Shown here piece after piece: positions 2,584 to 19,863 of a DNA stretch of 64,000 nt. The notes below the pieces were generated by a model. The model was given only the letters and a program-made list of their open reading frames with translations, was not told the DNA's origin and made no database searches. Each line of letters opens with the position of its first letter. Position 1 is the stretch's first letter. Source of the DNA: Roseibacillus sp. Lineage in GTDB: Bacteria; Verrucomicrobiota; Verrucomicrobiia; Verrucomicrobiales; Akkermansiaceae. The translations under genes were made by a program, and so were the position numbers. Location: the NCBI GenBank assembly GCA_029242545.1, contig JAQWTV010000123.1, forward strand, positions 108,695 through 172,694. Reading direction: 5' to 3'.

Positions 2584-4485
2584 TTAGCGGTCGCTTTTTT
2601 CCCACGAGAAGGTATCCGGGATTGGTTCGGCGATATGTTGATGCATCCGTGCCGCATATCCATTTGGCCGTCCGGGAACATCAGGATCGTTTGTGGGCAG
2701 TTTAGTGATGCGTTGCTTATATGGCGCGAGAACCTTCTGGGGTTGATGGTCGAGAGCGTTGAGAGCTGCGACTGCGTGATACGCGCTCGATTTAGTGGGG
2801 TCCGCATTGGCTAGGAGGACCTCAAGGGCTTCCTCGCCTCCCTTTGCTCCCACCGGGTAGGTAGCAAGGGCTTCAGCAGCGGCAATTTGTACGCTTCGGG
2901 AGGGGTCCTTGAGTAGGGAGTTGAGGGCTTCCAAGTGTTTATGGATGACCTTTTCGCCAAGATAGAGACAGGCATGGGCGGCCCAGTAGCGCTGCGCTGG
3001 AAGTTTTGCGCGGAGCATGTTGACGATGCGTTCCTCGTCCACCGTTGTTTCGAGGAGTATATCCGAAGCCTTACGGATCCGCTGGATGGGATAGAGTGAC
3101 TTGTCCCGAGCAAGATCACCGGGTGTCAGACCATGCTCCTTGGCAAGGTCATGTAGCAACCCCTCCGGAAGGAGGGCCACATCAAAAGTCTTCTCAAGGT
3201 TCTGGTAGAGGGCGTTCCTCATGGAGATGAGAGTAGCTCTGAACTTGGGGTCCTGAGCCAGGTTGCGGGTCTCGTGGGGGTCCTCAGAAATATCGTAGAG
3301 CTCCTCGGGTGCCTTTCTTTCCCAGAACGCTGACTGGACTTTGTTGAGTTTACCCTGGTTGTGGAGGCGACGCCAGATACGGGTGCTCTGAGTTTCCATC
3401 TGGTAGTGAAGAGCCTGCCCGTGCGGAAGATGAGGCATGAAATTTCGGATGTAGACGAATCTCCCGTCAGCCACGGTCCGAGAGCAGTCTGGGCGTTCGT
3501 CCATGCGACCTCGGAACCCAAACGAGTGCGCCGGTTTCTCGGTGACATGTTTTCCTGCAAAGGGTTTTCCCTGTTGGAAGGCAGGAGGTTTTATTCCCAC
3601 GAGGGAAAGCATGGTCGCCCCTAGATCGACGAAGCCAACCAGCCTCTTCGAAATGCTACCAGATTTGTATTCTGGTGGGCGGAGGTGCTTCCACTTCTCC
3701 GGAATGTGCATGATCATGGGAACGTGAAGGCCACTCCATCCGGCGTAGCGTTTACCACGCGGCATACCGGATCCATGGTCAGCCCAAAAAATGACGATGG
3801 TATCTTCGGCTAGCCCTTCTTCTTTGAGAGCGCGGAGATGAGCTCCGAACCATTCATCCATCTGGCTCAATCGGTCGTAATACTGAGCCCAGTTATCCCT
3901 GACCGCAGGAACATCTGGGTGATAGGGAGGAATAGGTGCTTTGGATGGATCATGCTTCGTCGCGCTTTTGCGAGCCCGGATCCGACTTTCGTGGGTGCAG
4001 GTCTGGTTGAAAATTGCGAAGAAGGGCTGGCCCTTTTTGCGCTTGTTGTAGTGCGCTTTGCCAGAGGACTCGTTCCAGATGTCCCTGATGTTGTGCTTAA
4101 TATTGTAGTCTGTCTTCGAGTTGTTCGTGCAGTAGTAGCCGGCCTCCCGCAGGTATTGCGGATAGAATTTTAGCCACTCCGGTTTTGCGGCCTCCGAACG
4201 CATGTGGTGTGCGCCAAGCGAGGGGGCGTACATGCCACAGATGATGGTTGTGCGAGCAGGTGCGCATACAGGCGCAGTGGAAATCGCGTTTTTGTAGAGA
4301 AGAGAGGACTTCGCAAATGTATCGAGATTGGGAGTGTCCGCGTAGGTATCCCCGTAACAGCCGAGATGAGGACCATGATCCTCGGCAGAGAGCCAGAGAA
4401 TGTTGGGGCGGTCGACGGCCAGGAGAGGAGGCAATCCCCCCGAGGCGATCAGGAAGAGTAGGATTTGAAGTCTAATTCTATACAT
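2584..4485 (-). CDS. Secreted sulfatase with C-terminal HEAT-like repeats
   Basis: A type I sulfatase, hydrolysing sulfate esters (or N-sulfates) on glycans. The formylglycine signature C-A-P-A-R is at residue 74, metal ligands E35-D36 follow RPNILWLS, and an ADHGSG block is present in the middle. The LGCYGD and CAPARTTIICG blocks look most like the heparan N-sulfatase (SGSH-like) group, which is an inference. The last ~140 residues are HEAT-like helical repeats (around RSVQIAAAEALATY), a frequent add-on in Planctomycetes/Verrucomicrobia sulfatases. An in-frame start at 4596 exists, but ATG 4485 gives a clean signal peptide (MYRIRLQILLFLIASGG) and overlaps the uxaC stop by 8 nt, suggesting translational coupling. 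633 residues. Exported, probably periplasmic or outer-membrane associated. Confidence 0.9.
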   Translation of the reverse strand: MYRIRLQILLFLIASGGLPPLLAVDRPNILWLSAEDHGPHLGCYGDTYADTPNLDTFAKSSLLYKNAISTAPVCAPARTTIICGMYAPSLGAHHMRSEAAKPEWLKFYPQYLREAGYYCTNNSKTDYNIKHNIRDIWNESSGKAHYNKRKKGQPFFAIFNQTCTHESRIRARKSATKHDPSKAPIPPYHPDVPAVRDNWAQYYDRLSQMDEWFGAHLRALKEEGLAEDTIVIFWADHGSGMPRGKRYAGWSGLHVPMIMHIPEKWKHLRPPEYKSGSISKRLVGFVDLGATMLSLVGIKPPAFQQGKPFAGKHVTEKPAHSFGFRGRMDERPDCSRTVADGRFVYIRNFMPHLPHGQALHYQMETQSTRIWRRLHNQGKLNKVQSAFWERKAPEELYDISEDPHETRNLAQDPKFRATLISMRNALYQNLEKTFDVALLPEGLLHDLAKEHGLTPGDLARDKSLYPIQRIRKASDILLETTVDEERIVNMLRAKLPAQRYWAAHACLYLGEKVIHKHLEALNSLLKDPSRSVQIAAAEALATYPVGAKGGEEALEVLLANADPTKSSAYHAVAALNALDHQPQKVLAPYKQRITKLPTNDPDVPGRPNGYAARMHQHIAEPIPDTFSWEKSDR

Positions 4486-5893
4486 GATGAGGAAGAGCGA
4501 GGTAGGACCTGGCGTTTTCATAACAGATGTTACGAATGAGGGAATCAAGGAAGTCCTGATCGTCGGGGATCTCTCCGTTTTCGACGTCTTCAGCAATAAT
4601 ATTACAGAGAAGCCGGCGGAAGTATTCGTGACGCGGATAGGAGAGAAATGAACGGGAGTCAGTCAGCATCCCAATGAAGCGGGAGAGAAGTCCGATTGAG
4701 GCAAGGGTTTGCAGGTGGTCAGTCATTCCCCGGAGGGTGTCATTATACCACCATGCGGAGCCCCACTGGATCCGTGAGGGGGTTGGGCCTTCCTGAAACG
4801 AGCCACACGCAGAGGCGAAAAGCGCATTATCCCTCGGGTTGAGGTTGTAGAGGATGGTCTTGGGAAGGGAGTTTTTCTGATGGAGGCCGTCGAGGAATCG
4901 AAGCAAGCGCTCTCCCTGGGGCCAGTCCCCGATCGTATCGAACCCACTATCGGGACCAAGTTCATGGAAGAAACGAGTGTTAGGGTTTCTTACTGGTGCA
5001 AGGTGAAGTTGCATGGTCCATCCGCGCTCGTTATTCCAGTTCCCGAGTTGTTGCATCAGAAAGTAGCTGAACGCATCAGCCTCGCTCTTGGTGGAAGGGC
5101 TCCCATCTAATGCTCGCTGGAAGATTTCCGCCGCTTCATCCTCTTTACAGGGCTGGATGGGGCAATAAGGCATGCCGTGATCAGAGAGGCGGCATCCCGC
5201 CGAATGGAAGTCATCATGGCGAGTGCGCAAGGCCTGAATAAGTTGATCAAGGCTCTGGATCTCTATATTACACTGTTTGCCGAGAGCCTCGCAGAATGGA
5301 TTTAATATATGAGGACGCTCGACCATGAAGGCCTTGTCCGGCCTGAAAGTGGGGTAGACTTTGGTGGTGATCCCAAGAGAGGCGCATGCCTCATGGTGAG
5401 AGAGGCTGTTGGAGGGGTCATCAGTCGTGCCAACAGTGTCGACATTGAATTTGTTGAGAAGTCCCTGAGCGCAAAAGTTATCATCCTGGAGACGCTCGTT
5501 GGTCTCATTCCAGATTGCCTCTGCAGTGTCCGGGTTCAGGAGGGTGTCGATTCCAAAGCACCGGCGGAGCTCTAGGTGAGTCCAGTGAAACAGAGGGTTG
5601 CCGACAGTGAAGGGGATAGTCTCTGCCCAAGCTTGGAATTTTTCACGCGGAGAGGCGTCACCGGTGATGTGTGATTCCGGTATTCCATTCGCTCGCATGG
5701 CCCGCCATTTGTAATGATCCTCACCGAGCCAGAGGCTGCTGATGTTATCCCAGCGTTTGTTTTCCGCGACCTCCTCAGGAGGAAGGTGAGTGTGATAATC
5801 TATGATCGGCTGGATTGCAGCGACTTCATGGAAAAGGCGCTCCGCAGTTTTACTGCGAAGAAGGAAGTTGTCGTCCAGGAAGGCTCTGGCCAT
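4478..5893 (-). CDS. uxaC: Glucuronate isomerase (uronate isomerase)
   Basis: Converts D-glucuronate to fructuronate (and galacturonate to tagaturonate), the first cytoplasmic step of uronate catabolism. 471 residues, the usual family length. The metal-binding D-Y-H-T-H-L motif is at residues 32-37, and the N-terminal block FLDDNFLL...AERLFHE is typical. No signal peptide, as expected for a cytosolic amidohydrolase-superfamily enzyme. It lies between two secreted sulfatases, so it probably feeds on uronic acid released from a sulfated polysaccharide (for example a glycosaminoglycan-, ulvan- or fucoidan-like polymer). No polysaccharide lyase, uxaB or uxuA/B homologue is seen in the window, so the rest of the pathway must lie elsewhere. 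Confidence 0.95.
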   Translation of the reverse strand: MARAFLDDNFLLRSKTAERLFHEVAAIQPIIDYHTHLPPEEVAENKRWDNISSLWLGEDHYKWRAMRANGIPESHITGDASPREKFQAWAETIPFTVGNPLFHWTHLELRRCFGIDTLLNPDTAEAIWNETNERLQDDNFCAQGLLNKFNVDTVGTTDDPSNSLSHHEACASLGITTKVYPTFRPDKAFMVERPHILNPFCEALGKQCNIEIQSLDQLIQALRTRHDDFHSAGCRLSDHGMPYCPIQPCKEDEAAEIFQRALDGSPSTKSEADAFSYFLMQQLGNWNNERGWTMQLHLAPVRNPNTRFFHELGPDSGFDTIGDWPQGERLLRFLDGLHQKNSLPKTILYNLNPRDNALFASACGSFQEGPTPSRIQWGSAWWYNDTLRGMTDHLQTLASIGLLSRFIGMLTDSRSFLSYPRHEYFRRLLCNIIAEDVENGEIPDDQDFLDSLIRNICYENARSYLALPHHV

Positions 5894-5997: not shown

Positions 5998-7407
5998 TCA
6001 CTGGGACCCCGATCTCCGAACGCGGTCATATTCGGGATTTACACACTTATCCTTCCACTGATTGAGAACTTCACGAAGGCCCGCCTCTGATTCCGGGTAT
6101 TGACCTTTATCGTCAGTCCGCAGCTGCCACTCGGCGAGAATAGAGCGATGTTGTTCCAGAACCTTTGCGAAGGCCGGATCAGACGCGAGATTTTTGATCT
6201 CATGAGGATCCTGTTCTATATCATAGAGTTCTTCTCGAGGGCGTGGGCCGAAAAAGATCTCGTCCGTCAGGGCTGGGAGAGTGCCCGCTGCATGGCCTTG
6301 GCGGAGAAATACGACGTAGTCACGGTTGTCACGATATTGAGGCTGGAGAAATGGGCGGTCGGTAAGGAAATTGCGGATGTAGCGATATCGTTCGCTACGG
6401 ACGCTGCGTATATAGTCGATCGTGTAATCACAGCGATCACGAGCGGAGATCACATATTCACGTGGAGTGAAAGAAGGAGAGAAGAGATCTACGCCATCGT
6501 AATGGGAGGGTATTTGGATGCCTGCAAGGGCGAGAGAAGTCGCTGAGATGTCGAGGGTCGATGTTAGTTCGTTGCGGAGGCTCCCTGCCTGGATGCGTTT
6601 GTCAGCTCCAGAGATAATCAATGGCACGTGGGTGCCTGCTTCGGTGCAGAACTGCTTGGCTCTCAGGGAATGGTTATTTCCGTGGTCGGTGAACCAGAAG
6701 ATGATCGTGTTTTCCAGGAGGCCATCCGCTTTGAGATTTGCGAGGATCTTTCGGGTGTCGTCATCGGTTTGGCGCACGGTGTCATAGTGGTGGGCGTGCC
6801 ACTTACGAAAGAGGGCGGTGTTTGGCAGGTAAGGAGGAGGAGTGACGGAGTCAGGGTTGACCTTGTCGTTCCACTTTTTGGTATTGCTTTTGCCCCCTGC
6901 GAGCTGGATTTGACCAAACCAAGGTTTGCCTTTTGGGAGGTTACGCCATGCGCCAAAATCTCTCCGGGGACCCTTGATGGAATAGAGGTCGGAGTTTTCG
7001 AAGACGAAGTTGTAGTCCTCCTTCCCGCTATTGAAGGTGAGGTAGCCGTGCTTGCTGAAGAGTTGGGGGATCGTTGTGATGCCGGCAGGAAGGTTGATAG
7101 CTCCAGCCTTGGTTCTGGAGGAACGGTGGTTGTGCAGACCCGTGGTTGTCTGATAGGTGCCGGTAATCATTGCGGACCTGCAAGGTGAGCACACAGGGGC
7201 AGGGACGTAGCACCGGGAAAATCGCACCCCACCCTTAGCGAGGGCGTCTATATTTGGTGTCTTGTCTGCGTTCACCGGATCGCCGTAGCAACCGATCAGA
7301 GGAGACATGTCCTCGATGAAGATCCAGAGAATGTTAGGATTGGCTGCAGTGCTCTGCTGGGATTGCAGGATCAGGAGCGAGAGAAAGAAGGTCAGGAATC
7401 GCGGCAT
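5998..7407 (-). CDS. Secreted sulfatase
   Basis: Type I (formylglycine-dependent) sulfatase of 469 residues. A signal peptide covers about residues 1-22 (MPRFLTFFLSLLILQ...). The maturation site is C-S-P-C-R at residue 73 and metal ligands are E32-D33 in NPNILWIFIED; a second block reads WFTDHGNNHSLRAK. Unlike the downstream paralogue it has no HEAT extension and ends soon after the REELYDIEQDPHE block common to these enzymes. It is the first gene of the three-gene minus-strand cluster, 104 nt upstream of uxaC. The substrate is not predictable from sequence; a uronic-acid-containing sulfated glycan is inferred from uxaC. A maturating enzyme (anSME or FGE) is not encoded in the window. Confidence 0.92.
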   Translation of the reverse strand: MPRFLTFFLSLLILQSQQSTAANPNILWIFIEDMSPLIGCYGDPVNADKTPNIDALAKGGVRFSRCYVPAPVCSPCRSAMITGTYQTTTGLHNHRSSRTKAGAINLPAGITTIPQLFSKHGYLTFNSGKEDYNFVFENSDLYSIKGPRRDFGAWRNLPKGKPWFGQIQLAGGKSNTKKWNDKVNPDSVTPPPYLPNTALFRKWHAHHYDTVRQTDDDTRKILANLKADGLLENTIIFWFTDHGNNHSLRAKQFCTEAGTHVPLIISGADKRIQAGSLRNELTSTLDISATSLALAGIQIPSHYDGVDLFSPSFTPREYVISARDRCDYTIDYIRSVRSERYRYIRNFLTDRPFLQPQYRDNRDYVVFLRQGHAAGTLPALTDEIFFGPRPREELYDIEQDPHEIKNLASDPAFAKVLEQHRSILAEWQLRTDDKGQYPESEAGLREVLNQWKDKCVNPEYDRVRRSGSQ

Positions 7408-7533: not shown

Positions 7534-8955
7534 CTAGCCTTTGACAAAAATGGCTTTAAGGATGAAGTAGAATACTGCTGCGAGGCCGCCGCCAGCCGGA
7601 ATCGTTATAACCCAAGACAACGCGATATCTCGCACTACCTTGAGGTTCAGGTAGTCGATTCCCCGCGCCAACCCGATTCCCAAGACAGCTCCAACCAAGG
7701 TGTGAGTCGTTGAGATGGGAAATCCCATGCGACTAGCAACCACGATTGTGGTTGCTGCGCCAATATTGGCAGCAAATCCTCGGCTGGGCGTTAACTCGGT
7801 TATCTTTTTTCCGACAGTCTCCATCACCTTGTAGCCCCAAGTCGCCAGACCGATGACGATTCCTGCGCCACCTAAGAGAAGGATCCATATGGGGACAGGG
7901 GCCTCGTCGGCGATCGCCCCGGTTTTCAGGATCTCTACCACGGCTGCCAGAGGGCCAATTGCGTTGGCTACATCATTGGCTCCGTGAGCGAAGGCAAGAA
8001 AACATGCGCTGAGGACCATGAGGGTAGCGAAGATCTTCTCCATTTTCGCATACTCAAACTTGCGCCGATGTTCCCACCGTCCGCTGCCAATGTTAGAGCC
8101 GGGAGCGAGAGGTGGGCGCAGAAGGGGCTCCATGTCGGGTGTGGACTTTCGGACGAAGGGAACTCCCTCTTCGTAATCATCCTCCAGTTCAATGCCCTCG
8201 GCAACTCGCTCCTCGTTGTGCTTCACCCTCATCTTCCTAACCCACGCTTTACCAATGCCGAAGCAGACAAAACCGATTAAGGTTGCGACGATCAGGGCCT
8301 CTCCGAGGTTGAGGTCAAGTTTCAGGTTTTTCAGTCCTTTGTAGACCATCACCAGCGTTAGTACGAATCCGATGTAGAAAACCAGGTAAGGCGTAAACCG
8401 GTATGCTTGGCTCAGTGGTTTCTTATGGTTGATTATGCTGCCCTGAATAAACCGAAAGAGGAAGAAGGCGATAGCGCCCCCGCAGAGAGGCGATGTCACC
8501 CAAGACGCGGCAATCTCAAATACCTTCGCCCAATTCACAATTTCAGCCCCGCCTATCACAATGGCAATTCCTATAACGGCACCCACGATTGAGTGGGTCG
8601 TGGAGACTGGCCATCCGAACCAGGTAGCAGTTTGTAGCCATGCTGCTGCGGCCAGCAGGGCCGCAAGAAAGCCGAGAACGAGCAGCATAGGCTCAAAAAT
8701 CGAAGGATCAAAAATGCCCTTGCGCACCGTATTGGTGACGTGGCTGCCAACCAGAACGGCACCCGCGAGCTCCATAATGGCCGCAATGAGAACCGCCTTG
8801 GCGACCGTTAATGCGCCAGAACCCACCGAGGTTCCCATCGCATTGGCCACATCATTGGCTCCAATATTCCAAGCCATATAGAAGCCAAACACCAAGGCCA
8901 GGATCATCAGAATCGATCCGTAGGGGAGGGTGGTTTCAAAGAGTGCAAGTATCAT
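7534..8955 (-). CDS. pit: Low-affinity inorganic phosphate transporter, Pit family
   Basis: Inner-membrane phosphate (metal-phosphate) proton or sodium symporter. The two inverted-repeat halves each carry the PiT signature: GANDVANAMG at residues 32-41 and GANDVANAIG at 325-334, and each half also has an STTH(S/T)(I/L)VGA block (near 118 and 413). About ten hydrophobic segments are visible, with a charged cytoplasmic loop of roughly 90 residues in the middle (residues about 225-305). Length 473 is normal. The start ATG lies 2 nt after the stop of the DUF47 gene, so the two are one operon, a widely conserved pair in which DUF47 is thought to regulate Pit. The substrate could also include sulfate in some subfamilies; phosphate is favoured by the partner. 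Confidence 0.94.
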   Translation of the reverse strand: MILALFETTLPYGSILMILALVFGFYMAWNIGANDVANAMGTSVGSGALTVAKAVLIAAIMELAGAVLVGSHVTNTVRKGIFDPSIFEPMLLVLGFLAALLAAAAWLQTATWFGWPVSTTHSIVGAVIGIAIVIGGAEIVNWAKVFEIAASWVTSPLCGGAIAFFLFRFIQGSIINHKKPLSQAYRFTPYLVFYIGFVLTLVMVYKGLKNLKLDLNLGEALIVATLIGFVCFGIGKAWVRKMRVKHNEERVAEGIELEDDYEEGVPFVRKSTPDMEPLLRPPLAPGSNIGSGRWEHRRKFEYAKMEKIFATLMVLSACFLAFAHGANDVANAIGPLAAVVEILKTGAIADEAPVPIWILLLGGAGIVIGLATWGYKVMETVGKKITELTPSRGFAANIGAATTIVVASRMGFPISTTHTLVGAVLGIGLARGIDYLNLKVVRDIALSWVITIPAGGGLAAVFYFILKAIFVKG

Positions 8956-8957
8956 AG

Positions 8958-9641
8958 TTAGCTCTTTTGGTTTTCAATAATAATTCTAATGCCATTGGCC
9001 GTCTTGTCCGAGTAGGCGCTCAATTCCTGAAGCAGACTCACGATCTTGACCCATAAGATGATCTCTACGGGTGAGAGTGTCTCGCTGGCAGCATAGACCT
9101 TGCGAGTGGCTTCCAGACAGGCGTCGCGTGTCGAGTCGTCTCGACCACGAAGTTCGTTAATGAGTTTCATGGTAGTCTCGGCATCTCTGCCTGCAAACGA
9201 CGACCTGATGAGGAGTTCCACCTTCGAAATGACTCCTGATGCCAACGTGCAATTCTCGAGAACTATGGAGATGAAATGGGCAATTTCTTCACGGATTATG
9301 TCTGGCAACCCGAGCGGTCGAAAAGTAAAGCTGGTAGCGATCTCCTCGGCCATGTCGGCCATGGAGTCCTGCTGTTCGACAGTATCGAACAACTCGGACC
9401 GGCTTACGGGGAGCATAAGCTTGCCGGAAAGCGCTTCGTGAATTTTGTTGCGCAGGTCATCAGCCTCTGTTTCCAGCGCGGATACTTCCTTGGCCAATCT
9501 TGCTATTTCTTCCTCTCTGCCATTGTTCAGCACAACAGAGAGAAGGGATGAAAGGCGAGTGACACATTCCTCCACCTTTCGACCGTGCTCGACTATGTGA
9601 ATGAAGGGAGAGCGCCCAAATAAACTGGAGAGTGTACTCAT
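8958..9641 (-). CDS. DUF47 / PhoU-like Pit accessory protein
   Basis: A 227-residue, almost entirely helical protein of the DUF47 (TIGR00153) family, related to PhoU. The E/D-rich helices bind metals in PhoU-like proteins; the blocks KEVSALETEADDLRNKIHE (about residues 66-84) and LFDTVEQQDSMADMAEEIA are diagnostic. Known family members accompany Pit transporters and are believed to control their activity or the phosphate starvation response. No membrane segment or signal peptide, so cytoplasmic. It is the first gene of the operon with pit; its promoter must lie in the 494-nt gene-free stretch that also carries a perfect GTGACA/TGTCAC inverted repeat. Confidence 0.88.
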   Translation of the reverse strand: MSTLSSLFGRSPFIHIVEHGRKVEECVTRLSSLLSVVLNNGREEEIARLAKEVSALETEADDLRNKIHEALSGKLMLPVSRSELFDTVEQQDSMADMAEEIATSFTFRPLGLPDIIREEIAHFISIVLENCTLASGVISKVELLIRSSFAGRDAETTMKLINELRGRDDSTRDACLEATRKVYAASETLSPVEIILWVKIVSLLQELSAYSDKTANGIRIIIENQKS

Positions 9642-11035: not shown

Positions 11036-12436
11036 TTACCAGTTGCCGCCGCTCCTTAGGGCCTCGAGTTCTTCATTGTAAATATTGAACTCGAGTCTCG
11101 AGAAGGCATTTAGCTTGAACTCTACGTTTCCAAAGGTCTGGCTGTAACCAGTCAAGGTGTCTTTCGAGAAGGCGTCGAGGCGGAAGGTGATCCGCCCTCC
11201 TTCCCTTAGCCATCCCCTAACATCTCCCTTTTTTCGAATGGGCTCTTCATAATCGCCTTCGGTAAGGTCAATGGTGCGCATCCGGTCAACAGGGATATTC
11301 ATTTTACAGAATGGGGTCTCTACGGCGAGCACTCCGTCTTTAATAAGTCCGACATTACCCACCACCGTGTCGCCGTTTTGTAGACGAATCTTCTGGCCTT
11401 CTAATTCATCCTCTTCGGGATCAGCCTCGAGCTCGGCAGTGTCAGGCAACTCGTCTTTCCAAGGGCTGACTCTGATGCGGCTAACCTTTACCTTGTAGAA
11501 GTCCTCCGAGATGAAGTGGAGCCAATTTCCAAAGCTTCCAGCCTTCGGGTTCTCATCAGTCCATACTTGTGCCTGTCTGCCATCGATATAAAGGGCGATG
11601 GTTCCTTCCTTTCGGTCAATATAGAATTCGAACCGAACACTTTCCTTTTCGGCCAGTTCCGGGATGTTCGCCTGGCCAACGATTTTTGAGCCTCCGGCTG
11701 CACGATCGACCCAGCGTTTCCGCAGATAGACGAAGCGACGCTGGCAGACCAGATCATAACAATTGTCTGGCTGGGTGGTCGATCCCTTGTCCGAGAGAAG
11801 GAGAACGCGGAACCGAAGGGAGCTTCTCCAGGCGAGATCGAACTGGATGCGGCAGCGGTCAGGGGTCTTTATTTCCCTCGCGATTCCAGCACCCTTGTTG
11901 GATGAGAGGGATCCTCCGTTGAGACTCCAAGAGTCTTTCTCGCCTTCGATGATCCATGAGTCAAAGTCCTCAGGCCCTGAGTAGACGGTCTGGTTGGCCC
12001 TTTGGATCTCCAGATCAGAGGCCATGGTTCGACGGATTTTAAGAGGACCTGCATACCATGTCTGAAGGGTAACATGTTCCTCGTCCAGAGCATCAAGCTG
12101 GCCGCGCAGGGTGTCTCCGTTGGTAAGAAGTAGGAGTGCTTGGTGTTCCCCCTCATCTTTTGGCGAGAGTCCTCCCTCCAGGCGCATTTCCAGCAGAGAG
12201 GAGGGCTTGACTGGGATAGGCTGATGGAGGAATGGAGCGTTCCAGCGGAGATTCCCATCCTCATCGATTCCCTCAGGAGTGCCGCTGACCTTGTCCTCGT
12301 TGGCAAAGGTGAGGAAGCCCTGGACTGAAGTGAGCTCTGCTGGGAGAGCGGCATTCCCATTGCCTTCTTCCCCGGGTTGCTGCTGTCCAATTACGATCGC
12401 AGGAAACAGGAGGATTAGTAGGAGAGACTTCTTCAT
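11036..12436 (-). CDS. Exported NGD-repeat/LamG-like protein, paralogue 3 of tandem trio
   Basis: A 466-residue protein of unknown function with a signal peptide (MKKSLLLILLFPAIVIGQQ, residues 1-19). Visible layout: an N-terminal segment with the repeat LLLTNGDTLRGQL (about 103-115), a central LamG/concanavalin-like beta domain (about 155-330) with an RFVYLRKRW block and a GTIALYIDGRQAQVWTD strand pair, and a C-terminal IRLQNGDTVVGNV repeat. The same layout occurs in the two genes upstream, so the three arose by duplication. The start overlaps the previous stop by 4 nt (ATGA), so it is the last gene of the operon. No catalytic residues can be named; a carbohydrate- or protein-binding envelope role is only a guess. 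Confidence 0.8.
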   Translation of the reverse strand: MKKSLLLILLFPAIVIGQQQPGEEGNGNAALPAELTSVQGFLTFANEDKVSGTPEGIDEDGNLRWNAPFLHQPIPVKPSSLLEMRLEGGLSPKDEGEHQALLLLTNGDTLRGQLDALDEEHVTLQTWYAGPLKIRRTMASDLEIQRANQTVYSGPEDFDSWIIEGEKDSWSLNGGSLSSNKGAGIAREIKTPDRCRIQFDLAWRSSLRFRVLLLSDKGSTTQPDNCYDLVCQRRFVYLRKRWVDRAAGGSKIVGQANIPELAEKESVRFEFYIDRKEGTIALYIDGRQAQVWTDENPKAGSFGNWLHFISEDFYKVKVSRIRVSPWKDELPDTAELEADPEEDELEGQKIRLQNGDTVVGNVGLIKDGVLAVETPFCKMNIPVDRMRTIDLTEGDYEEPIRKKGDVRGWLREGGRITFRLDAFSKDTLTGYSQTFGNVEFKLNAFSRLEFNIYNEELEALRSGGNW

Positions 12437-13758
12437 GATCCGTTCTTCTGAGGTGCCTCAATCGCAAGTCGCTTGAGGGTGTTTCGGTCGAGCGTTAATT
12501 TTCCAAGAAGCGGGTGGGTTGCCTCTATAGAGGAGTCTTTCATCTCGAGGGCGGTGCATTGAAGGGATCCTCCACCGGTGAGAGATAGAGCAACTGGGGC
12601 CTGGCCCTCGGGGAGTTGTAAAGGATGCTTGAAGTAGAGGGCGGAAATTCTCGAGGTTTGAATGTTAAGGGGTTGATCGTTGAAGGGACTTTCAAAAATG
12701 ATGCTATCACCCTGGTCGCTGGCTTGGAGTTGAAGTGCAGATCCGCTAAGATGCTGGCCCTCTACGTCGACCAGTCCGTCGGTCTTGGGGTCTTCATGGC
12801 CTTCATCGCGCCGTAGTTCAGTGACTGCGTCCCACTCATAGATTTCAAGCTTGCTGACGATGTTCTTCAGGTCTCCGCCAGCTTGACTCTGAAGCATGAT
12901 CCCTGTGCCTGTGGGGAAGGTGTCGATGGGGTCAGGCGTTCTTTGGATCTTCTCGCTGTTCAGATAGAGATAGATCTGCCTGCTGTCCCGGTTGACTCGT
13001 AACTCGACGTCTATTCCACGGCCGGGGTATTCGCGGGGCTTCTGATGTGACTGCGCGAGGGTATGCCAGCGGCGGCCGCCCTCGGTGGTTTGTCTTTTCA
13101 GCTGTGATCCCATTGAGTTGACCTCAAAGTAGTATCTATCCGCATTCCCGGTCCTCTTCAGGAAGTCGTCACAGAAGTAGATTCGAAAGTTGGGATCGTT
13201 TTCCCAATCCAATCTGAATCGCAGGATGAATTGCCGGGGGAGAACGTTTTCCGCAGCAATTGTGCCGCTCGTGTTGCAGGTGAGACTGCCGTTCTCCCAC
13301 TCCCAGTCATCATTATCACTCCATTCGGTAATGGGCTTTGGTCCCGAGTAGACGAGTTTTTGCGGGGTGACGCCAAAGTCGATGGAGTGAACGTGGTCGC
13401 GGGGAATTGTCAGCTCATTAGCATAGCCGGTGAGGAAGCTGACTTCTTTACTGTCGAGATTTTGCAGGGTGCCGGGGAGGATGTCCCCATTTACGAGATG
13501 GAGAAGCTGAGGAGCTTTTTGAGAATTTGCGTTGTCGTTGCGGAAGCTGATCGAGCTGAGGGACTGAGCCCTGAGGTGTATGTGTTGATCACTAAAGTCC
13601 GAATCAACCACCACTTTATCGTTCCCCTCGATAGCGAGAACCTTGCCGCTGAGTCGGCTCCCATCATTGAGTTCGAGGGTGTCCTCCGTGGGCTCCGCCG
13701 GAACTACAACGAGCACGCACAGCATGGCTATGCCGGTAAGAATGGGGGTTTTGGTCAT
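12433..13758 (-). CDS. Exported NGD-repeat/LamG-like protein, paralogue 2 of tandem trio
   Basis: About 441 residues, unknown function. ATG 13758 was chosen because it gives a clean signal peptide (MTKTPILTGIAMLCVLVVV) and its TAATG overlaps the preceding stop by 1 nt; ATG 13776 six codons upstream is possible. The N-terminal part carries LELNDGSRLSGKVLAIEG and HLVNGDILPGTLQNLD, two copies of the same NGD-type beta repeat. The middle is LamG-like (YYFEVNSMGSQLKR, then RDSRQIYLYLNSEKI), and the C-terminal part has a weaker third repeat (LSLTGGGSLQCTALEMKD). It is the middle member of three tandem paralogues and is translationally coupled on both sides. Confidence 0.78.
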   Translation of the reverse strand: MTKTPILTGIAMLCVLVVVPAEPTEDTLELNDGSRLSGKVLAIEGNDKVVVDSDFSDQHIHLRAQSLSSISFRNDNANSQKAPQLLHLVNGDILPGTLQNLDSKEVSFLTGYANELTIPRDHVHSIDFGVTPQKLVYSGPKPITEWSDNDDWEWENGSLTCNTSGTIAAENVLPRQFILRFRLDWENDPNFRIYFCDDFLKRTGNADRYYFEVNSMGSQLKRQTTEGGRRWHTLAQSHQKPREYPGRGIDVELRVNRDSRQIYLYLNSEKIQRTPDPIDTFPTGTGIMLQSQAGGDLKNIVSKLEIYEWDAVTELRRDEGHEDPKTDGLVDVEGQHLSGSALQLQASDQGDSIIFESPFNDQPLNIQTSRISALYFKHPLQLPEGQAPVALSLTGGGSLQCTALEMKDSSIEATHPLLGKLTLDRNTLKRLAIEAPQKNGS

Positions 13759-15323
13759 TAGTAGTCGTCGTCCCATGAATCCAAAATACTCGATCCGAAT
13801 GAGAATTCCATTAGACCGGTATAGCGGAGGTTAAGGTTGATTTCCCCGAGGGCGGGGTGGCGGGCCTTAAGGGTGTCGGAATTTGCTTTAAGGGGAAGAA
13901 CTGTGAGGCGGCCGTGAGGCTGGAGGAGCAGGCGTATCCTCTGTCGACTAGCCCAGTCTTCATCCTCCTCTGTCCGGCTAGACTCGGCCAGACGTATTTC
14001 CTGGATCTCGTGAGCGGGAACCTTCATCTCGGCGTAGGTTCCCTTAATTAAAAACTGGCCCTCCTTGAGTGATTCCAGTTTGCCGGAGAATCGATCGGTC
14101 CCGTTGGTGAGCAGAACCACATCCCGGTCTTCAGCCTCCATGCTTTGCGCGCTATCCATCATGCCGTTCCAGCCTGTCACGAGGACGTCTGAAATGCGAA
14201 GGCGAGCGGAGGAATTCTGTGAGGCAAAGGCGAGGTGGGATCCGCTGCCGACGTATCCTTGTCGGTCGGTCCATTGACTTACGAACCTCCCATTGGCAAA
14301 GAGGGCTATTGTGCCGGCTGTCCGGTCACAACGAATCTCAAACTCCGCTTGACCCGCTTCATCAAGACGCAGGTTGGCACTTGAATTGGAAAGGCGATCG
14401 ATGTCGGCATTTCCGTCTTCAGTAAAGTCACACCGGTAAATCTGAGCATAATTGGAATAGATGGTGAGGACGTAGCTGTGTCCGTAGGTATAGGCAAATC
14501 CTTCCTTGAATTTTGAGCCAGCATTCGGGGCTAACTTACGCTTTTCCTCTGCTTCTTTTTCACCCCCTTCTTCTTTCTTGGCTTGATCTGGCCGCTCCAT
14601 GGTTGCGTGGAATGCGATCGCTGTATTCAGTCGATTACGCCATGCGAGGGTGAAGCGGATACGAGAACGATCTCCGGCATTGGTATCTACTGCGATAGGG
14701 AGTTGCCCGTTACTATAGTAGGCGCCACCACTGAAGACCCACGGATCCTCTTGAGGTTCCTGTTCCTCTGGATCCTCGTTTTGTTCCTCAGGTTGCTCTT
14801 CTGGATTGTCGGTAACAGGGGCATCCGGAGGGGTGATGACACTCCACTCGCCATCGCTGAACGGACCAATATATTGGACGTGACCACCATGTGGAGATGG
14901 TGCGATCTGGCTGACAAATTCCCGAGGAATGGATACTCGTCCTGCGAATTCAGTGTCAATCTCGAGCCTTTCCGGGTCGAGGCTTACGAGTGTTCCAGGG
15001 ATTCTGTCGCCGTCAGCGAGTTGAACGAAGGAGGGGCTGCGGAGGTTTTTGCGGGCACGGCCCCCGTTGAAGGACAGCCGCCGAATCTTATCGGTGCGAA
15101 GGGTGATAGGTTCGGCTGCCTCCGAATGAAGCCAACGTAGTTCTCCGTCACCGAGGCCAAGGAAGGAGCCATGGAGGGAATCTCCATTACGAAACCTGAG
15201 AAGGTCTTCCGGCTCGCTTGGATTTTCTCCGAGCAATGAGGATGAGAGGGCCACTCCCAAGGCGAAGATGGCCTTGGTTATCCGAGGAGGGGAGCCGCAC
15301 TCCATTGGGGGGCTACTTCTCAT
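13758..15323 (-). CDS. Exported NGD-repeat/LamG-like protein, paralogue 1 of tandem trio
   Basis: 521 residues, the longest and first of the three paralogues. The N-terminus has a hydrophobic stretch (AIFALGVALSSSLLG, about 18-32) consistent with a signal peptide; a shorter start at 15305 (M7) is possible. Repeats LRFRNGDSLHGSFLGLGD and QLADGDRIPGTLVSLDPE are followed by an acidic, Glu/Pro-rich linker (about residues 170-195), the LamG-like core with GTIALFANGRFVSQWTD, and a C-terminal LLTNGTDRFSGKLESL repeat. The acidic linker is absent from the other two copies. The start overlaps the stop of the alpha-toroid gene by 11 nt. Function unknown; secretion and paralogy are clear. Confidence 0.8.
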   Translation of the reverse strand: MRSSPPMECGSPPRITKAIFALGVALSSSLLGENPSEPEDLLRFRNGDSLHGSFLGLGDGELRWLHSEAAEPITLRTDKIRRLSFNGGRARKNLRSPSFVQLADGDRIPGTLVSLDPERLEIDTEFAGRVSIPREFVSQIAPSPHGGHVQYIGPFSDGEWSVITPPDAPVTDNPEEQPEEQNEDPEEQEPQEDPWVFSGGAYYSNGQLPIAVDTNAGDRSRIRFTLAWRNRLNTAIAFHATMERPDQAKKEEGGEKEAEEKRKLAPNAGSKFKEGFAYTYGHSYVLTIYSNYAQIYRCDFTEDGNADIDRLSNSSANLRLDEAGQAEFEIRCDRTAGTIALFANGRFVSQWTDRQGYVGSGSHLAFASQNSSARLRISDVLVTGWNGMMDSAQSMEAEDRDVVLLTNGTDRFSGKLESLKEGQFLIKGTYAEMKVPAHEIQEIRLAESSRTEEDEDWASRQRIRLLLQPHGRLTVLPLKANSDTLKARHPALGEINLNLRYTGLMEFSFGSSILDSWDDDY

Positions 15324-16305
15324 AAATTGGCAGAAACCGATAGTTCAGGGCCATCGATAGCAGGGCTCCTGAGGTGCTGAAAGCTGCGCCCTTGTTTCCT
15401 GGCCAGCTCCCATCGCGGGCTTGCAGGGTGGAAAGATACCGGATGTTCTTTGAGTTCCACTCCTCCCATACCTGTTCATCAGCGTGGAAAAGGGCCTGGG
15501 ACATATAATATTCGAAATAGTAGGGATAAAAACGATCGCGATAGTTGAGCCGTTTGCCAAGGTATCCGAGGCTGGCTTTGTAGCCTTTGTTGTCCTTCTC
15601 CTTAGCGAGGGCCAGGCAAAGTGAACCGATTGCGGTGAGAGTTGGTTTTCCGCTTCCAGCCGAAGTGTATCCGTAACCGCCGTCTGATGCGCGGCATCTC
15701 TTCATGAAGGCATGACCTTTCTTAAGCGCATCCTCGGGAACTGGGATGCCAGCATTTCTGGCCGCGTATAAAGCCACCATTTGTGCGCCGGTTACGGTGG
15801 TATCAGCATCTTGGCTGTCGGGAGTATATCTCCACGCGCCCCGGCTGTTACGTTCCTGCGCACTTAGGATCAGGTCAACCGCTCCTTTGAGTGCGAGGGC
15901 CAGCTTGTCGTCCTTCAGGACTCCGTATGCCTCGGCCAGAGCGAGGGTTGCGAAGCCGTGATTGTACATGCTCGATCCGATATAGCCGTTCGTCTCATTC
16001 TGGTTCTCTAGAATAAAGCTGATGCCCCCACGAATATTTCGCGCATAGGGCCCGTGATTAGGGTCCTCACCGTGGGCGAGGAACGCCATCACACATAGTC
16101 CAACCACTCCCGGCTCACTGCCGTTCCTATCCGGCCAATTGCCATTTTCTGTCTGGCTTTCCGCAAGATAGCGCAGCCCCTTGATATACATCTGGTCAAC
16201 CTGGGGGGGGATGGGGTCGTCCTGCCTGCGGGGTAACGCCTGAGAGCGCCCGACCAGGGACGTTACCAGTAAAGCTGCTGAGACAAGCGGTAAAAACAGT
16301 CTCAT
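15313..16305 (-). CDS. Exported alpha-toroid (prenyltransferase/squalene-cyclase-like repeat) protein
   Basis: 330 residues with a signal peptide (about 1-23). At least four QW-like repeats of the terpenoid cyclase/prenyltransferase alpha-alpha toroid are visible: YLAESQTENGNWP, ILENQNETNGYIG, RCRASDGGYGYT and YLSTLQARDGSWPG. A DADTTVTGAQ block sits where squalene-hopene cyclases have their DxDD acid, but the full catalytic motif is not present and the protein is half the length of a cyclase. In this phylum such exported toroids are common and are probably structural or binding proteins rather than cyclases (inference). It starts 5 nt after the stop of the small Gln/Gly-rich gene, so it is in the same operon. 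Confidence 0.82.
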   Translation of the reverse strand: MRLFLPLVSAALLVTSLVGRSQALPRRQDDPIPPQVDQMYIKGLRYLAESQTENGNWPDRNGSEPGVVGLCVMAFLAHGEDPNHGPYARNIRGGISFILENQNETNGYIGSSMYNHGFATLALAEAYGVLKDDKLALALKGAVDLILSAQERNSRGAWRYTPDSQDADTTVTGAQMVALYAARNAGIPVPEDALKKGHAFMKRCRASDGGYGYTSAGSGKPTLTAIGSLCLALAKEKDNKGYKASLGYLGKRLNYRDRFYPYYFEYYMSQALFHADEQVWEEWNSKNIRYLSTLQARDGSWPGNKGAAFSTSGALLSMALNYRFLPIYEK

Positions 16306-16310
16306 CGCAT

Positions 16311-16574
16311 TCAGCGCACCTTATTGTAGGAGTCGAGAGCCTTTTGGAACTCAGGTGGGAGGTAAGAGCCTGATTTTCCTGCTTTTTTCCCGATAGTACG
16401 CTCCTCTTTCTTGCCTTTGCCAGCATCAGTGAACTCCTTGTTAGGGGAGTCAGAGTCACCCTCTTGGCCTTCGCCCGCCTGTTCTCCGGGCTGTCCTTTT
16501 TGCTCTCCCTGACCTTGTCCGGGAGTTTTGCCCATCATGCGCTGCATCATATCGAGCATGGCACCCATGCTCAT
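16311..16574 (-). CDS. 3' part of a TGA-interrupted small gene (low-complexity C-terminal segment)
   Basis: 87 residues counted from ATG 16574. It is Met-rich at first (MGAMLDMMQRMMGK), then Gln/Gly/Glu-rich low complexity (TPGQGQGEQKGQ...), then a basic segment ending LPPEFQKALDSYNKVR. It is in exactly the same frame as the gene just upstream, separated by one TGA (16587-16589) and four more codons; reading through gives a smooth linker (QQSGGT-stop-PDSGMSMGAM). There is no clear ribosome binding site before ATG 16574. I therefore think the two were one protein of about 231 residues. It could instead be translated by re-initiation 12 nt after the stop. No signal peptide of its own. Confidence 0.55.
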   Translation of the reverse strand: MSMGAMLDMMQRMMGKTPGQGQGEQKGQPGEQAGEGQEGDSDSPNKEFTDAGKGKKEERTIGKKAGKSGSYLPPEFQKALDSYNKVR

Positions 16575-16586
16575 TCCACTGTCTGG

Positions 16587-17006
16587 TCATGTGCCGCCAC
16601 TTTGCTGTGAACGCTGTTTGGCGGCTTCAAAAATCTTTTCTATGATTTCGGTTTCTGCAGCGATGGTCGGTCCGCCGGTATCGGTTTCATCGAGTGAATC
16701 GATCACCTCTGCCATGACCTCTTCGACCTCTTCCAGAAGGGATATCAGTTTTTCGTCGGTCTGCTCCTCAATCAGGTCCTGAACATCGGCAGCAAGTTCG
16801 TCCTGTTCTCCGGCGAGGTTCTGCGAGCCTTCACGATGTTTTCCGGCAGCCTTTTTCTGGGACTCCGTGACCGGATCAGGATAGATGATCTCAGGGAGCT
16901 CGATTGCGAGCTTGGTGTCTGGCGGATCCTGCGCTTTCTGTGAAAGCGCGGGGACTGTCAGAAAGAGGAGCGCTCCAACCGCGAGGAGGAGAATATTGTT
17001 CTTCAT
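16587..17006 (-). CDS. 5' part of a TGA-interrupted small exported protein
   Basis: 139 residues with a clear signal peptide (MKNNILLLAVGALLFLTVPALSQ). The mature part is acidic and helical (QDELAADVQDLIEEQTDEKLISLLEEVEEVMAEVIDSL pattern in two stretches), ending EIIEKIFEAAKQRSQQSGGT before TGA. Such acidic, Gln-rich proteins commonly sit beside DUF4175-like coiled-coil proteins in this phylum, so a partner role is inferred. It starts 61 nt after the stop of that gene. The frame continues without another stop to 16311; see the finding on the in-frame TGA. Confidence 0.65.
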   Translation of the reverse strand: MKNNILLLAVGALLFLTVPALSQKAQDPPDTKLAIELPEIIYPDPVTESQKKAAGKHREGSQNLAGEQDELAADVQDLIEEQTDEKLISLLEEVEEVMAEVIDSLDETDTGGPTIAAETEIIEKIFEAAKQRSQQSGGT

Positions 17007-17067
17007 GATATCTATGAGGTTCTAGCTGTTGGAAATTGACTGGTTTATTGTTCGGTGTCTGGAAGGT

Positions 17068-19863
17068 CTACTCTGAAAGATCCTGCAGATGAAGAGTTCG
17101 CCGAAGTTGTTCGAGGGCCCTCGTCCGGGCCCGGATGTCCTGTTCAGTCTGGATCATCGCCATGACTTTCAGCATAAACTCAAAATCATTGTCGTCTAGA
17201 GAAGGCTCCTGACCTTCACCCCCGCCGCCGCCGCCGGCCCCGGAAGGGTCTTCAGGAGGATCAAGGATATCGGCCCATGCCTTCAGCTGGTCAGCCCACT
17301 TTTTCGCGGAGGAGAGGGCCATGAATGTCCGGTTGGTAACGATCTTCTCGCGGACCGCCTCTAAGTGGGAGTCGATGTTCGATTCCCTCATCTCGACCAT
17401 GATCTGCTTGTGTTCCTCCTTTTCCGTTCGTGCATAAAAATGCCCAAGATCCTCATGGATCCAGTGAACGTCTGAAGCTGTTCTTCGCTGCTGCATGGAA
17501 AGCTCTCCGAGGACTCGCTGATCTACTGGATCAAGTTCGTCATAGGGTGTCCCGGCGATAGTGGTGTTGCCCTTGTCGTCGATAGAAGCGATGAGGGTGT
17601 TAGCAATCCCATCTTCCTCGGAGGCAGCGCGACGTAATCTGTTGACAAAAGTGCTGGCTTCGAAGTCCTGGTTAGCTTCGTTGGCGCCTTCGATTGTCTC
17701 CCGCATTTTCTCAAGGACCTTCTCCTGCTCCTCAATGGCCTCTTGAAGGTCTTTCTCTGACTGTTCAGGGGTGGAGCTTGGGTCCTGTGCCTCCTGAAGC
17801 TGCTGCTCTACCTTGGGCATGTCCTCTTTGCTAAGCTCCTGCATTTTCTGCATGGTTTCGGCCATCTTCTGCATGGTTTCTGCTTCAACCTCTCCGTTCT
17901 TCAGGGCCTCCCCGAGAAGTTCTTCCATCCGTTCAGACAGCTCGGACATCTTTTCGATATTCTCTGCCTCGTTCATCTCCTGCTGCTCCAACCTCTCCTT
18001 GTTGGCTTCCTCCTGAAGCTTTTCGGCTCCATCCTGTTCTATTCGACGATTCTCGTCGAAGTTGTTCTGCTCACGGCGAGCCGCATCTTCGAGTTCGCCG
18101 ATGACACGGTCGAACTGGTCCTTCAGGAGCTGGGCTTGTTCGTCCTTGGTCAGGATGTGGAGGGTGATGGGCTCGGAATAGACCCGCCCTCGCCCGGGAA
18201 AGTAGTCTTCGACAAATGCACGAACCTGTAGCTTCTGGGCAGGAATATTGCGAGTTTTGGGCGAAAAGTGAACCACTCCTGAGAGTCGTCGCTGGTTGGG
18301 TGCCCCGAGCTCGAGGACGTGACTTCCCCTGGAAGGAGTCTCATCGGTTGGCTTAGTGAATTCTCCGGTCCATTCGTAGCCGATCTGCTTCGAGCCGTAG
18401 TCGTCTTCCGCAATGATTTCGAAGCTGACCGTCTCTTCCTCTAGAATGACGGTTTGTCTCTCAATGTCCTGAATGTAAGCGATGGGCTTCTGGTCTTCAA
18501 GGGGTTCGACTCGGATTCTGTGTCCACCTGCATCCTCCAGACCGTTGACGTCTTCCCAGTTCATTTGGAGTTCGAGAGGCTGAGATTGAAGAGAGATTCG
18601 GGGGGAGATCATCTGGGAACCTGCGACCCTCAGCGGAAGAATCCGCGGGGGGGCCGGTTGGTCCTCTTTCTCCCCGTCGAGTAGTGGGTCCGCTGCGAGG
18701 GGAGCGTTCGAATCAGAGTTGTCGGTAGCTTCTCCGATTTCCTCACTGTCGCCGAGGGTCTCGAGGTCGCTATCAAAAAGGTCTCTTTCGGTGGTCTTGG
18801 GCAGCTCTTTGATGGTAAGCATACCAGTTTTTAATTCGCGACCTTCCAAAGTTGTCGCCTCCAGAGAAACCTGACTTCCTACCACGACATCCCCTGAGAG
18901 AGTTCCCACGCGGAGCTCCTTGGTTTTATCTTGGAGTTGTAGATATTCAGGATACACGATTGTGGCCCGGACGGATTTAATGGCGGGGCGTGTCTGAGGA
19001 ATTACCTCCACTACCGGGCGAGCATCTCCGATACTGATCAGAACGCGGCCCGGCTCAGACTGTCCCGGGAAATCAAAGGTATAGGATTTCTTGTCGTCCT
19101 GAAGCTGGGCAGAGACAGGCTCCTGAATGCCAAACCTCGCGACCCCACTCGTAGGTCTCTGATCGGAGAGCTCGCTCAGGGAAACCGTGACACTGAATGG
19201 CTCATCCATCGGAACGATGATGGTTTCTTTGAAATCGCTGATTTTGGTGAAGGTATACCGTTGAACATCCGAAAATGGCCTAAGCCACCGCTCGAACGCG
19301 TTCTGGCTCGGTTTTGGGACCTTCCACAGGGCGGCCGCAATGATGGCGGCAGTCGTGAGAACCATCAGGGCCCAGCGGATGTGCCGCGGAGCTGGTAAGG
19401 CCGCTTTCAGATTCCGGCCTTCGGCCTGCTTCGCCACGGCCTTCATCGCAGCAGCTCGAAGCTCCGGGGAGAGGGCCTCTTTACTTTCTCTTTGGTCCTG
19501 AAGCTCCACGACGCCCAGCATCCGGTCGCCGAGGCGAGGAAACTTTCGAGCAATTAAGCGTGCGAGCTGAGCTTCGCGGCGATGCCTAAAAACCCAGCGG
19601 TGGATCCAGTAGGGTGCGAAGAGGGTGAAAAGGGAGGTGCCTCCTAAAAGAATGACGAGCCGCACGGTTGGAGGAGTGTTCCAAATGCGGTCGAGTCCGA
19701 AGACTACCAGATAGGAAAAGAGGAGTCCGAAGAGACCTGCTAATAAGGCTTCCGCGACCTTGATAAACCATAGGCGCCCACGGAACGCTTCCAGTTGCCT
19801 TCTGAGGCTGTCGGGTAAAGGCGCGCGCTTGTCCTTCGAGTGGGGGCCTTGGTCAGGTGACAT
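17068..19863 (-). CDS. DUF4175-like membrane and coiled-coil protein
   Basis: 931 residues from ATG 19863; a TTG at 19929 would add 22 residues that look non-coding. Two transmembrane helices near the N-terminus (VAEALLAGLFGLLFSYLVVFG and VRLVILLGGTSLFTLFAPYW) and a third near residue 170 (WALMVLTTAAIIAAALW) are followed by a large extracytoplasmic part: beta-rich Ig-like segments (about 200-560), then a long charged coiled coil (about 590-720, with METMQKM repeats) and a Gly/Pro hinge (GAGGGGGGEGQEP) before a C-terminal helical tail. This matches the DUF4175 type found in Planctomycetes, Verrucomicrobia and Alphaproteobacteria, often near MoxR/DUF58 genes, which are not seen here. First gene of the operon running to 11036. 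Function unknown; probably an envelope scaffold. Confidence 0.75.
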   Translation of the reverse strand: MSPDQGPHSKDKRAPLPDSLRRQLEAFRGRLWFIKVAEALLAGLFGLLFSYLVVFGLDRIWNTPPTVRLVILLGGTSLFTLFAPYWIHRWVFRHRREAQLARLIARKFPRLGDRMLGVVELQDQRESKEALSPELRAAAMKAVAKQAEGRNLKAALPAPRHIRWALMVLTTAAIIAAALWKVPKPSQNAFERWLRPFSDVQRYTFTKISDFKETIIVPMDEPFSVTVSLSELSDQRPTSGVARFGIQEPVSAQLQDDKKSYTFDFPGQSEPGRVLISIGDARPVVEVIPQTRPAIKSVRATIVYPEYLQLQDKTKELRVGTLSGDVVVGSQVSLEATTLEGRELKTGMLTIKELPKTTERDLFDSDLETLGDSEEIGEATDNSDSNAPLAADPLLDGEKEDQPAPPRILPLRVAGSQMISPRISLQSQPLELQMNWEDVNGLEDAGGHRIRVEPLEDQKPIAYIQDIERQTVILEEETVSFEIIAEDDYGSKQIGYEWTGEFTKPTDETPSRGSHVLELGAPNQRRLSGVVHFSPKTRNIPAQKLQVRAFVEDYFPGRGRVYSEPITLHILTKDEQAQLLKDQFDRVIGELEDAARREQNNFDENRRIEQDGAEKLQEEANKERLEQQEMNEAENIEKMSELSERMEELLGEALKNGEVEAETMQKMAETMQKMQELSKEDMPKVEQQLQEAQDPSSTPEQSEKDLQEAIEEQEKVLEKMRETIEGANEANQDFEASTFVNRLRRAASEEDGIANTLIASIDDKGNTTIAGTPYDELDPVDQRVLGELSMQQRRTASDVHWIHEDLGHFYARTEKEEHKQIMVEMRESNIDSHLEAVREKIVTNRTFMALSSAKKWADQLKAWADILDPPEDPSGAGGGGGGEGQEPSLDDNDFEFMLKVMAMIQTEQDIRARTRALEQLRRTLHLQDLSE

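Follow-up and report, generated by a model that had tools for sequence, protein, structure and literature searches.

Several described systems share features with the locus studied here. The Bat operon (Bacteroides aerotolerance) holds a MoxR AAA ATPase, a DUF58 protein and BatA; the Bat proteins have been proposed to be periplasmic and possibly to reduce oxidised proteins, and a study in Leptospira biflexa found no protective role of Bat against oxidative stress (PMC3557215, in the sections consulted). The DUF4175 protein AdvA of Acinetobacter baumannii has been tied to cell division (PMC7481262, in part). For bacterial selenoproteins, a bSECIS hairpin is expected to have a loop of 3-9 nt with a G among its first two bases, a stem of 4-16 bp, a distance of 16-37 nt from the UGA and a minimum free energy (MFE) of -7.5 or below (PMC13188914, in part).

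The operon described here lies in a window (the whole stretch of DNA that was analysed) of 64,000 nt from Roseibacillus sp., assembly GCA_029242545.1, contig JAQWTV010000123.1, positions 108,695-172,694 of the forward strand. As with known bacterial selenoproteins, its gene S has an in-frame UGA, a downstream bSECIS-type hairpin, UGA-free homologues and sometimes two candidate selenocysteines, and SelB and tRNA-Sec occur in the window's genus; in contrast to them, it resembles none of the 119 families or subfamilies in Table 1 of PMC13188914, and Cys counterparts are nearly absent. Genes of the kinds found in the Bat operon, MoxR, DUF58 and BatA, precede gene D4 in families other than the window's, although D4, S, TOR and N were not met in the consulted part of the Bat description (PMC3557215) and the two halves lie apart in the window's own family.

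Our results show that the operon is real and conserved in Verrucomicrobiota. From sequence comparison we consider it probable that it encodes six proteins, S among them with UGA read as selenocysteine, and that these form the periplasmic half of an envelope system of the MoxR-DUF58-BatA type; S is thus a predicted new selenoprotein family. If true, a widespread and unexplained MoxR/BatA cluster gains a constant set of partners that are likely periplasmic. We found no account of the system, or of S as a selenoprotein, in the consulted parts of PMC12283558, PMC3557215, PMC13188914, PMC1088965, PMC12013277 and PMC7159879, and neither was described in the portions seen of the literature on verrucomicrobial selenoproteins, on MoxR/BatA and on Akkermansia selB.

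The D4-S-TOR-N operon and its conservation

The seven frames of positions 11036..19863 are present as the original prediction described, all on the minus strand, and their products have signal-like or membrane segments as judged by eye. The first gene, D4 (17068..19863), encodes a 931-aa predicted inner-membrane protein with probable membrane-spanning helices at 18-92 and 161-194, followed by a beta region (205-573) and long helices (573-923). The beta region is Ig/Fn3-like with unspecific fold matches, the rest of the protein is barely covered by such matches, and neither Pfam nor NCBIfam gave a family for D4 at E 0.1. It had been called DUF4175-like, and with DUF4175 proteins such as AdvA it shares membrane helices and a large extramembrane part; UniRef even names some D4 orthologues 'DUF4175 family protein'. 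Nevertheless, the window protein does not match PF13779 (DUF4175) and a single one of 26 aligned members does, at E 7e-4, and we rejected the label for D4.

The neighbourhoods of 140 D4 loci were compared (40 from relatives, 80 from named contigs and 20 from the phylum), some of which represent the same genome twice (e.g. L042 and L091). For 111 loci, 6 kb or more of sequence downstream of D4 was available. In 99 of them D4 is followed on the same strand by TOR and one or more N genes; TOR is absent there in the remaining 12, and TOR without N was never seen. The compact envelope gene set that had been proposed is therefore a conserved one, and the D4-TOR-N order, which spans most of the window's family and reaches other classes of Verrucomicrobiota, is not unique to the window genome. 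A D4 match at E <= 0.001 occurs in 49 of the 58 nearer genomes, the window's own included; weak matches in G042, G049 and G051 (23-41 bits) were left out as orthologues. Nine Akkermansia loci, named via their protein names, all hold D4, TOR and two N genes, and S was recognised in seven of them, in the UGA-free form. Since gut Akkermansia carry this form, the system is genetically testable in a commensal.

Where TOR does not adjoin D4, an orthologue was found elsewhere in six of the ten genomes searched (G024, G019, G031, G033, G055 and G249). In L053, L064, L133, L141, L144, L150, L159 and L160, D4 is followed by S, and TOR and N are absent from the fetched stretch; for the genomes of the first two (G024 and G019) the orthologous TOR sits on another contig. 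In some loci of other families, D4 is separated from TOR, or from N, by an additional gene encoding about 680-850 aa (positions 6287-8848 of L066, likewise in L065 and L068-L070), which had no Pfam family in the two cases scanned, L066 and L070.

The prediction of an alpha-toroid protein was borne out. TOR (15313..16305, minus strand) has a signal-like N-terminus and passes the cut-off of the squalene-hopene cyclase C-terminal family PF13243 (E 8.8e-8, 32 bits against 26.1); in PDB it matches one terpene cyclase, at E 0.00097. TOR differs from the toroid of that family in its length of only 330 aa and in its signal-like start (by eye), and cyclase activity is not expected. TOR paralogues, of at most 173 bits, are held by G007 and G010, so TOR alone is not specific.

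The last three genes of the operon, N1 (13758..15323), N2 (12433..13776) and N3 (11036..12436), all on the minus strand, had been taken for NGD/LamG-type paralogues, and direct search, alignment and tree agree that they are homologous. In N1, NGD units flank a ConA-like core, and the alignment gives N2 and N3 the same architecture. In the structure model, made of N3, a fold search identifies the core as a ConA-like/LamG jelly-roll; the NGD units, for the most part built of five strands with a short helix preceding the final one, were barely covered by that search. A tandem triplication had also been suggested. Three paralogues there are, but in a 74-protein tree each goes back to a single origin within the family (supports 100/100, 91/86 and 58/43), which makes them old and led us to reject a recent triplication. 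Copy number also varies: three N genes in 69 of the 99 loci, two in 15, one in 13, four in one and five in one, and some single-N loci encode one N-type protein of about 1000-1400 aa. In the same tree the N proteins of three Akkermansia loci join N2 (the first copy) and N3 (the second copy), so that N1 seems to be missing there. For N3, the highest-ranking Foldseek matches come mainly from the binding domains of botulinum-type toxins (TM 0.24-0.30, rmsd mostly near 18-20); we read these matches as the common jelly-roll and discarded kinship with the toxins. The A2 profile searched against PDB sequences had bS1m as its best match (E 0.0035).

An in-frame UGA and a hairpin in gene S

Between D4 and TOR the original prediction had placed a split small protein. 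A single gene interrupted by UGA explains this region better: in every one of the 31 split loci, which represent 26 distinct genes, the two parts are separated by TGA; a hairpin is conserved; and 73 further loci (72 distinct) have S whole and without interruption, a count that leaves out L101, which is UGA-interrupted, and L115, a fragment. In the window, S (16311..17006, minus strand) forms a single frame of 232 residues provided that the UGA is read. The in-frame TGA (16587..16589, minus strand) is the predicted selenocysteine codon, corresponding to residue 140, and a predicted bacterial SECIS, GAGCATGG-GTG-CCATGCTC (16554..16572, minus strand), lies 14 nt 3' of it. The parts on either side, sA and sB, share one frame and protein homology runs across the UGA. 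The product has an N-terminal signal-like segment with a helical half, a Gly/Gln-rich linker that contains the UGA and a conserved C-terminal tail; its scores stay below the cut-off of every NCBIfam and Pfam model. If the prediction is true, S adds a selenoprotein family, one that was missed because gene callers cut the gene in two.

Could the UGA be a true stop, with sA and sB as two proteins and the hairpin controlling restart of translation at the sB ATG? The distances would suit such a restart, since an in-frame ATG follows the TGA after only 12, 18, 24 or 36 nt in all 31 split loci, and overlaps between adjacent genes make coupling a common feature of this operon. Nor does the Shine-Dalgarno motif speak against it: the motif is absent from sB in 25 of 31 cases and about as often from sA (27) and TOR (28), which makes it uninformative as a test of reinitiation. 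On the other hand, UGA is used alone in these loci, at 39 of 39 in-frame stops, though the stops of the predicted genes nearby are about one third each (TAA 114, TGA 106, TAG 95), and restart does not fit with the uninterrupted frame of the 73 relatives. Furthermore, sB by itself has no signal-like N-terminus (by eye), and its ATG lies inside or overlaps a stable hairpin; of the in-frame ATGs of sB, the hairpin of the window contains the second and overlaps the first. Two in-frame UGAs are present in eight S genes (L104, L111, L113, L117, L123, L132, L156 and L162), and restart also gives no reason for the link with SelB described below. We regard it as unlikely. A 32nd split locus, L101, likewise has two TGAs and a hairpin, in a gene cut by the contig end. 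In several of the two-UGA genes a GCCGGC palindrome brackets the second UGA.

With S read as a selenoprotein gene, the window hairpin agrees with every listed feature of the bSECIS model of PMC13188914: it has an 8-bp stem, a 3-nt loop starting with GU, 22 nt from the UGA to the loop and an MFE of -14.5. The hairpin is found in all 31 split loci and in L101, against none of 62 uninterrupted S loci with the peptide motif, and none was found near other single frames. In 27 of the 31 split loci 14 nt separate the nearest TGA from its start (15 nt in those with a 7-bp stem); the distance is 19 nt in L046, L051 and L102 and 32 nt in L099. Measured to the loop, the distance is 40 nt for the single UGA of L099 and, in genes with two UGAs, for the first of them, beyond the 16-37 nt of the model. 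Among 15 aligned loci the 17-nt core of the hairpin varies at one loop position only, and its codon usage is uniform: the Gly codon is GGT in 26 of 26 cases versus 79 of 575 elsewhere in those genes, and the Ser codon AGC in 26 of 26 versus 77 of 362. Covariation is slight, as the outer pair and the loop alone vary and the outer pair is not always compensatory. Folding z-scores are modest (-1.0 to -2.4 in eight segments, two of which did not span the UGA), and an Rfam scan of the S region gave nothing above the gathering score and no SECIS family.

A search for TGA-N14-hairpin returned 38 sites in 37 of 195 family genomes, in four genera, and none in the reversed control. All 30 sites fetched out of the 38 fall inside S with TOR after it, and D4 precedes it in 29. 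SelB is above cut-off in 68 of the 195 family genomes, in the window genome itself (279 bits, and 293 bits in a second search) and in 34 of the 37 pattern-positive genomes; of the other three, G385 and G415 have tRNA-SeC and G401 showed neither. When only good genomes are considered (completeness of 90% or more, contamination of 5% or less), 19 of the 40 SelB-positive ones show the UGA-hairpin pattern and none of the 109 SelB-negative ones does; these were counted by eye, and the Fisher p of 2.7e-13 overstates the case because the genomes are related; SelB-positive good genomes that do not carry the pattern are about as common (21 of 40) as those that do. Of the 15 genomes in the window's genus, 7 have a tRNA-Sec match of at least 63 bits, and ARAGORN reported tRNA-SeC (TCA) in the five of these that were fetched (G002, G007, G009, G012 and G013). 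In the window genome a complete tRNA-Sec was not found; 33 nt of it match at 100%, at a contig end.

These counts also bear on readthrough of the UGA by an ordinary near-cognate tRNA, which would yield long and short forms of S that do not contain selenocysteine. A UGA followed by C may be a leaky context, and UGA-C is the commonest context among the listed sites. Yet some sites read UGA-A or UGA-G, the geometry of the hairpin fits the bSECIS model, and the pattern is missing from all 109 SelB-negative good genomes. Readthrough of this kind we hold to be very improbable.

Selenocysteine remains our preferred reading of the UGA. Cys occupies the exact site in one of 74 uninterrupted orthologues (L124), and this near absence makes a conserved catalytic role doubtful. 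In bacterial selenoproteins, homologues with Cys in that place are the rule though not universal; for GrdA none is known, according to the part of PMC1088965 consulted.

The MoxR-DUF58-BatA-F genes

The original prediction stated that the operon lacks the MoxR, DUF58 and VWA genes. Locally this is correct: MoxR, DUF58 and BatA genes were not found beside the window operon, and none of MoxR, DUF58, BatA and F was present in the fetched stretches around D4 in the window's family (L036-L058). Genome-wide the statement does not hold. In some other families of the order (f2-f4) and in other classes, D4 comes after a MoxR-DUF58-BatA-F cluster, whose matches are strong for MoxR (AAA_3, E 1.4e-62), DUF58 (7.8e-48) and BatA (2.6e-15), the three genes lying upstream of D4 in L065, L066, L067 and L070. 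F is a protein of about 750 aa encoded just before D4, with weak Filamin/Fn3 matches below cut-off only. The window genome has several MoxR-DUF58 clusters, of which L085 (contig C165) is closest to the D4-linked type, with identities of 65% for MoxR, 49% for DUF58 and 42% for F, against 27-29% for F in L084, L086 and L087. The latter three clusters of the window genome have their own weakly D4-like genes (66-102 bits), and the neighbour in L084 reaches PF13779 at E 3.6e-6, below cut-off.

The D4 and F profiles were each run over 288 genomes of the phylum. Strong D4 and strong F matches were found in an identical set of 51 genomes, with none discordant. The two classes are well apart: the weakest strong D4 match has 371.9 bits and the best in a genome that has none 102.8 (G277), and the corresponding values for F are 544.6 and 247.9 bits (G246). 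In 19 of the 51 genomes F and D4 lie within 6 kb of each other, in 11 farther apart on the same contig and in 21 on different contigs; nine of the 51, all from outside the window's family, are cases where D4 and F just sit on separate contigs. Within Akkermansia (genus g3) both genes occur in 13 genomes of the sample and neither in nine, which offers a ready natural comparison of presence and absence. The Akkermansia genomes in which neither gave a strong match are G016, G107, G124, G160, G192, G238, G245, G248 and G331. Three discordant cases for D4 and F were met in the nearer set of 58: F is present while D4 and an orthologous TOR are missing in G007 (88% complete) and G010 (86%), and G033 has D4 with just a contig-end fragment of F.

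This co-occurrence bears on the view of the operon as an independent system for surface or matrix assembly, which the original prediction offered as a guess, with no tie to the MoxR/BatA genes. Such independence would accord with the signal-like or membrane segments of the products, with the N core fold, which is common in carbohydrate-binding proteins, and with the stretches around D4 in the window's family, where the cluster was not found. It is at odds, however, with the joint presence of D4 and F in 51 of 51 genomes, the split within Akkermansia included, and with the 19 genomes in which F adjoins D4; moreover, a shared fold shows no function. An independent system is, in our judgement, quite improbable, somewhat more so than translation restart within S.

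A possible redox or folding role

We propose, with reserve, how the two halves could work together. The UGA of S would be decoded as selenocysteine, directed by the predicted SECIS that begins 14 nt after it. D4, S, TOR and N may assemble as one complex, in which the beta domains and coiled coil of D4 would dock S, TOR and N in the periplasm. The MoxR ATPase and the membrane VWA/BatA/F proteins could then act on D4 across the inner membrane. The jelly-roll cores and small barrels of N may bind envelope clients, on which the selenol of S, or in other families a TlpA-like redoxin fused to N, would carry out redox repair or folding. The system would perhaps serve an ATP-driven redox or folding maintenance of the envelope.

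What hints at such a role is that elsewhere N is fused to a redoxin and, once, to a PPIase. A redoxin domain lies near the C-terminus in eight of the nine complete long N proteins scanned. More boldly, S may be a selenoprotein of a new kind and provide the selenol arm of a machine, as yet undescribed, that spans the envelope, is driven by ATP through MoxR/BatA and repairs or folds proteins of the envelope; this reading is tentative, and we give it less than even weight. The picture of S that goes with it is equally tentative: S would be exported, coiled and rich in linker, with one or two selenocysteines in the flexible linker, and other lineages would use the N-fused thioredoxin-like domain instead. 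Redox or folding work on envelope clients is, to us, a possibility somewhat on the doubtful side, and we offer it as a hypothesis because the Leptospira mutants did not support the reduction role proposed for Bat (PMC3557215, in the sections consulted).

Among the long N proteins, the one of L062 (14183-17956) is fused both to a PPIC-type rotamase (E 2.5e-11) and to a redoxin/TlpA-like domain. Elsewhere in the window, positions 2584-4596 and 5998-7407 encode two proteins that we take, by eye and from a motif, to be sulfatase-like, and at 7534-9641 a phosphate-transporter-like gene adjoins a PhoU/DUF47-like gene (by eye).
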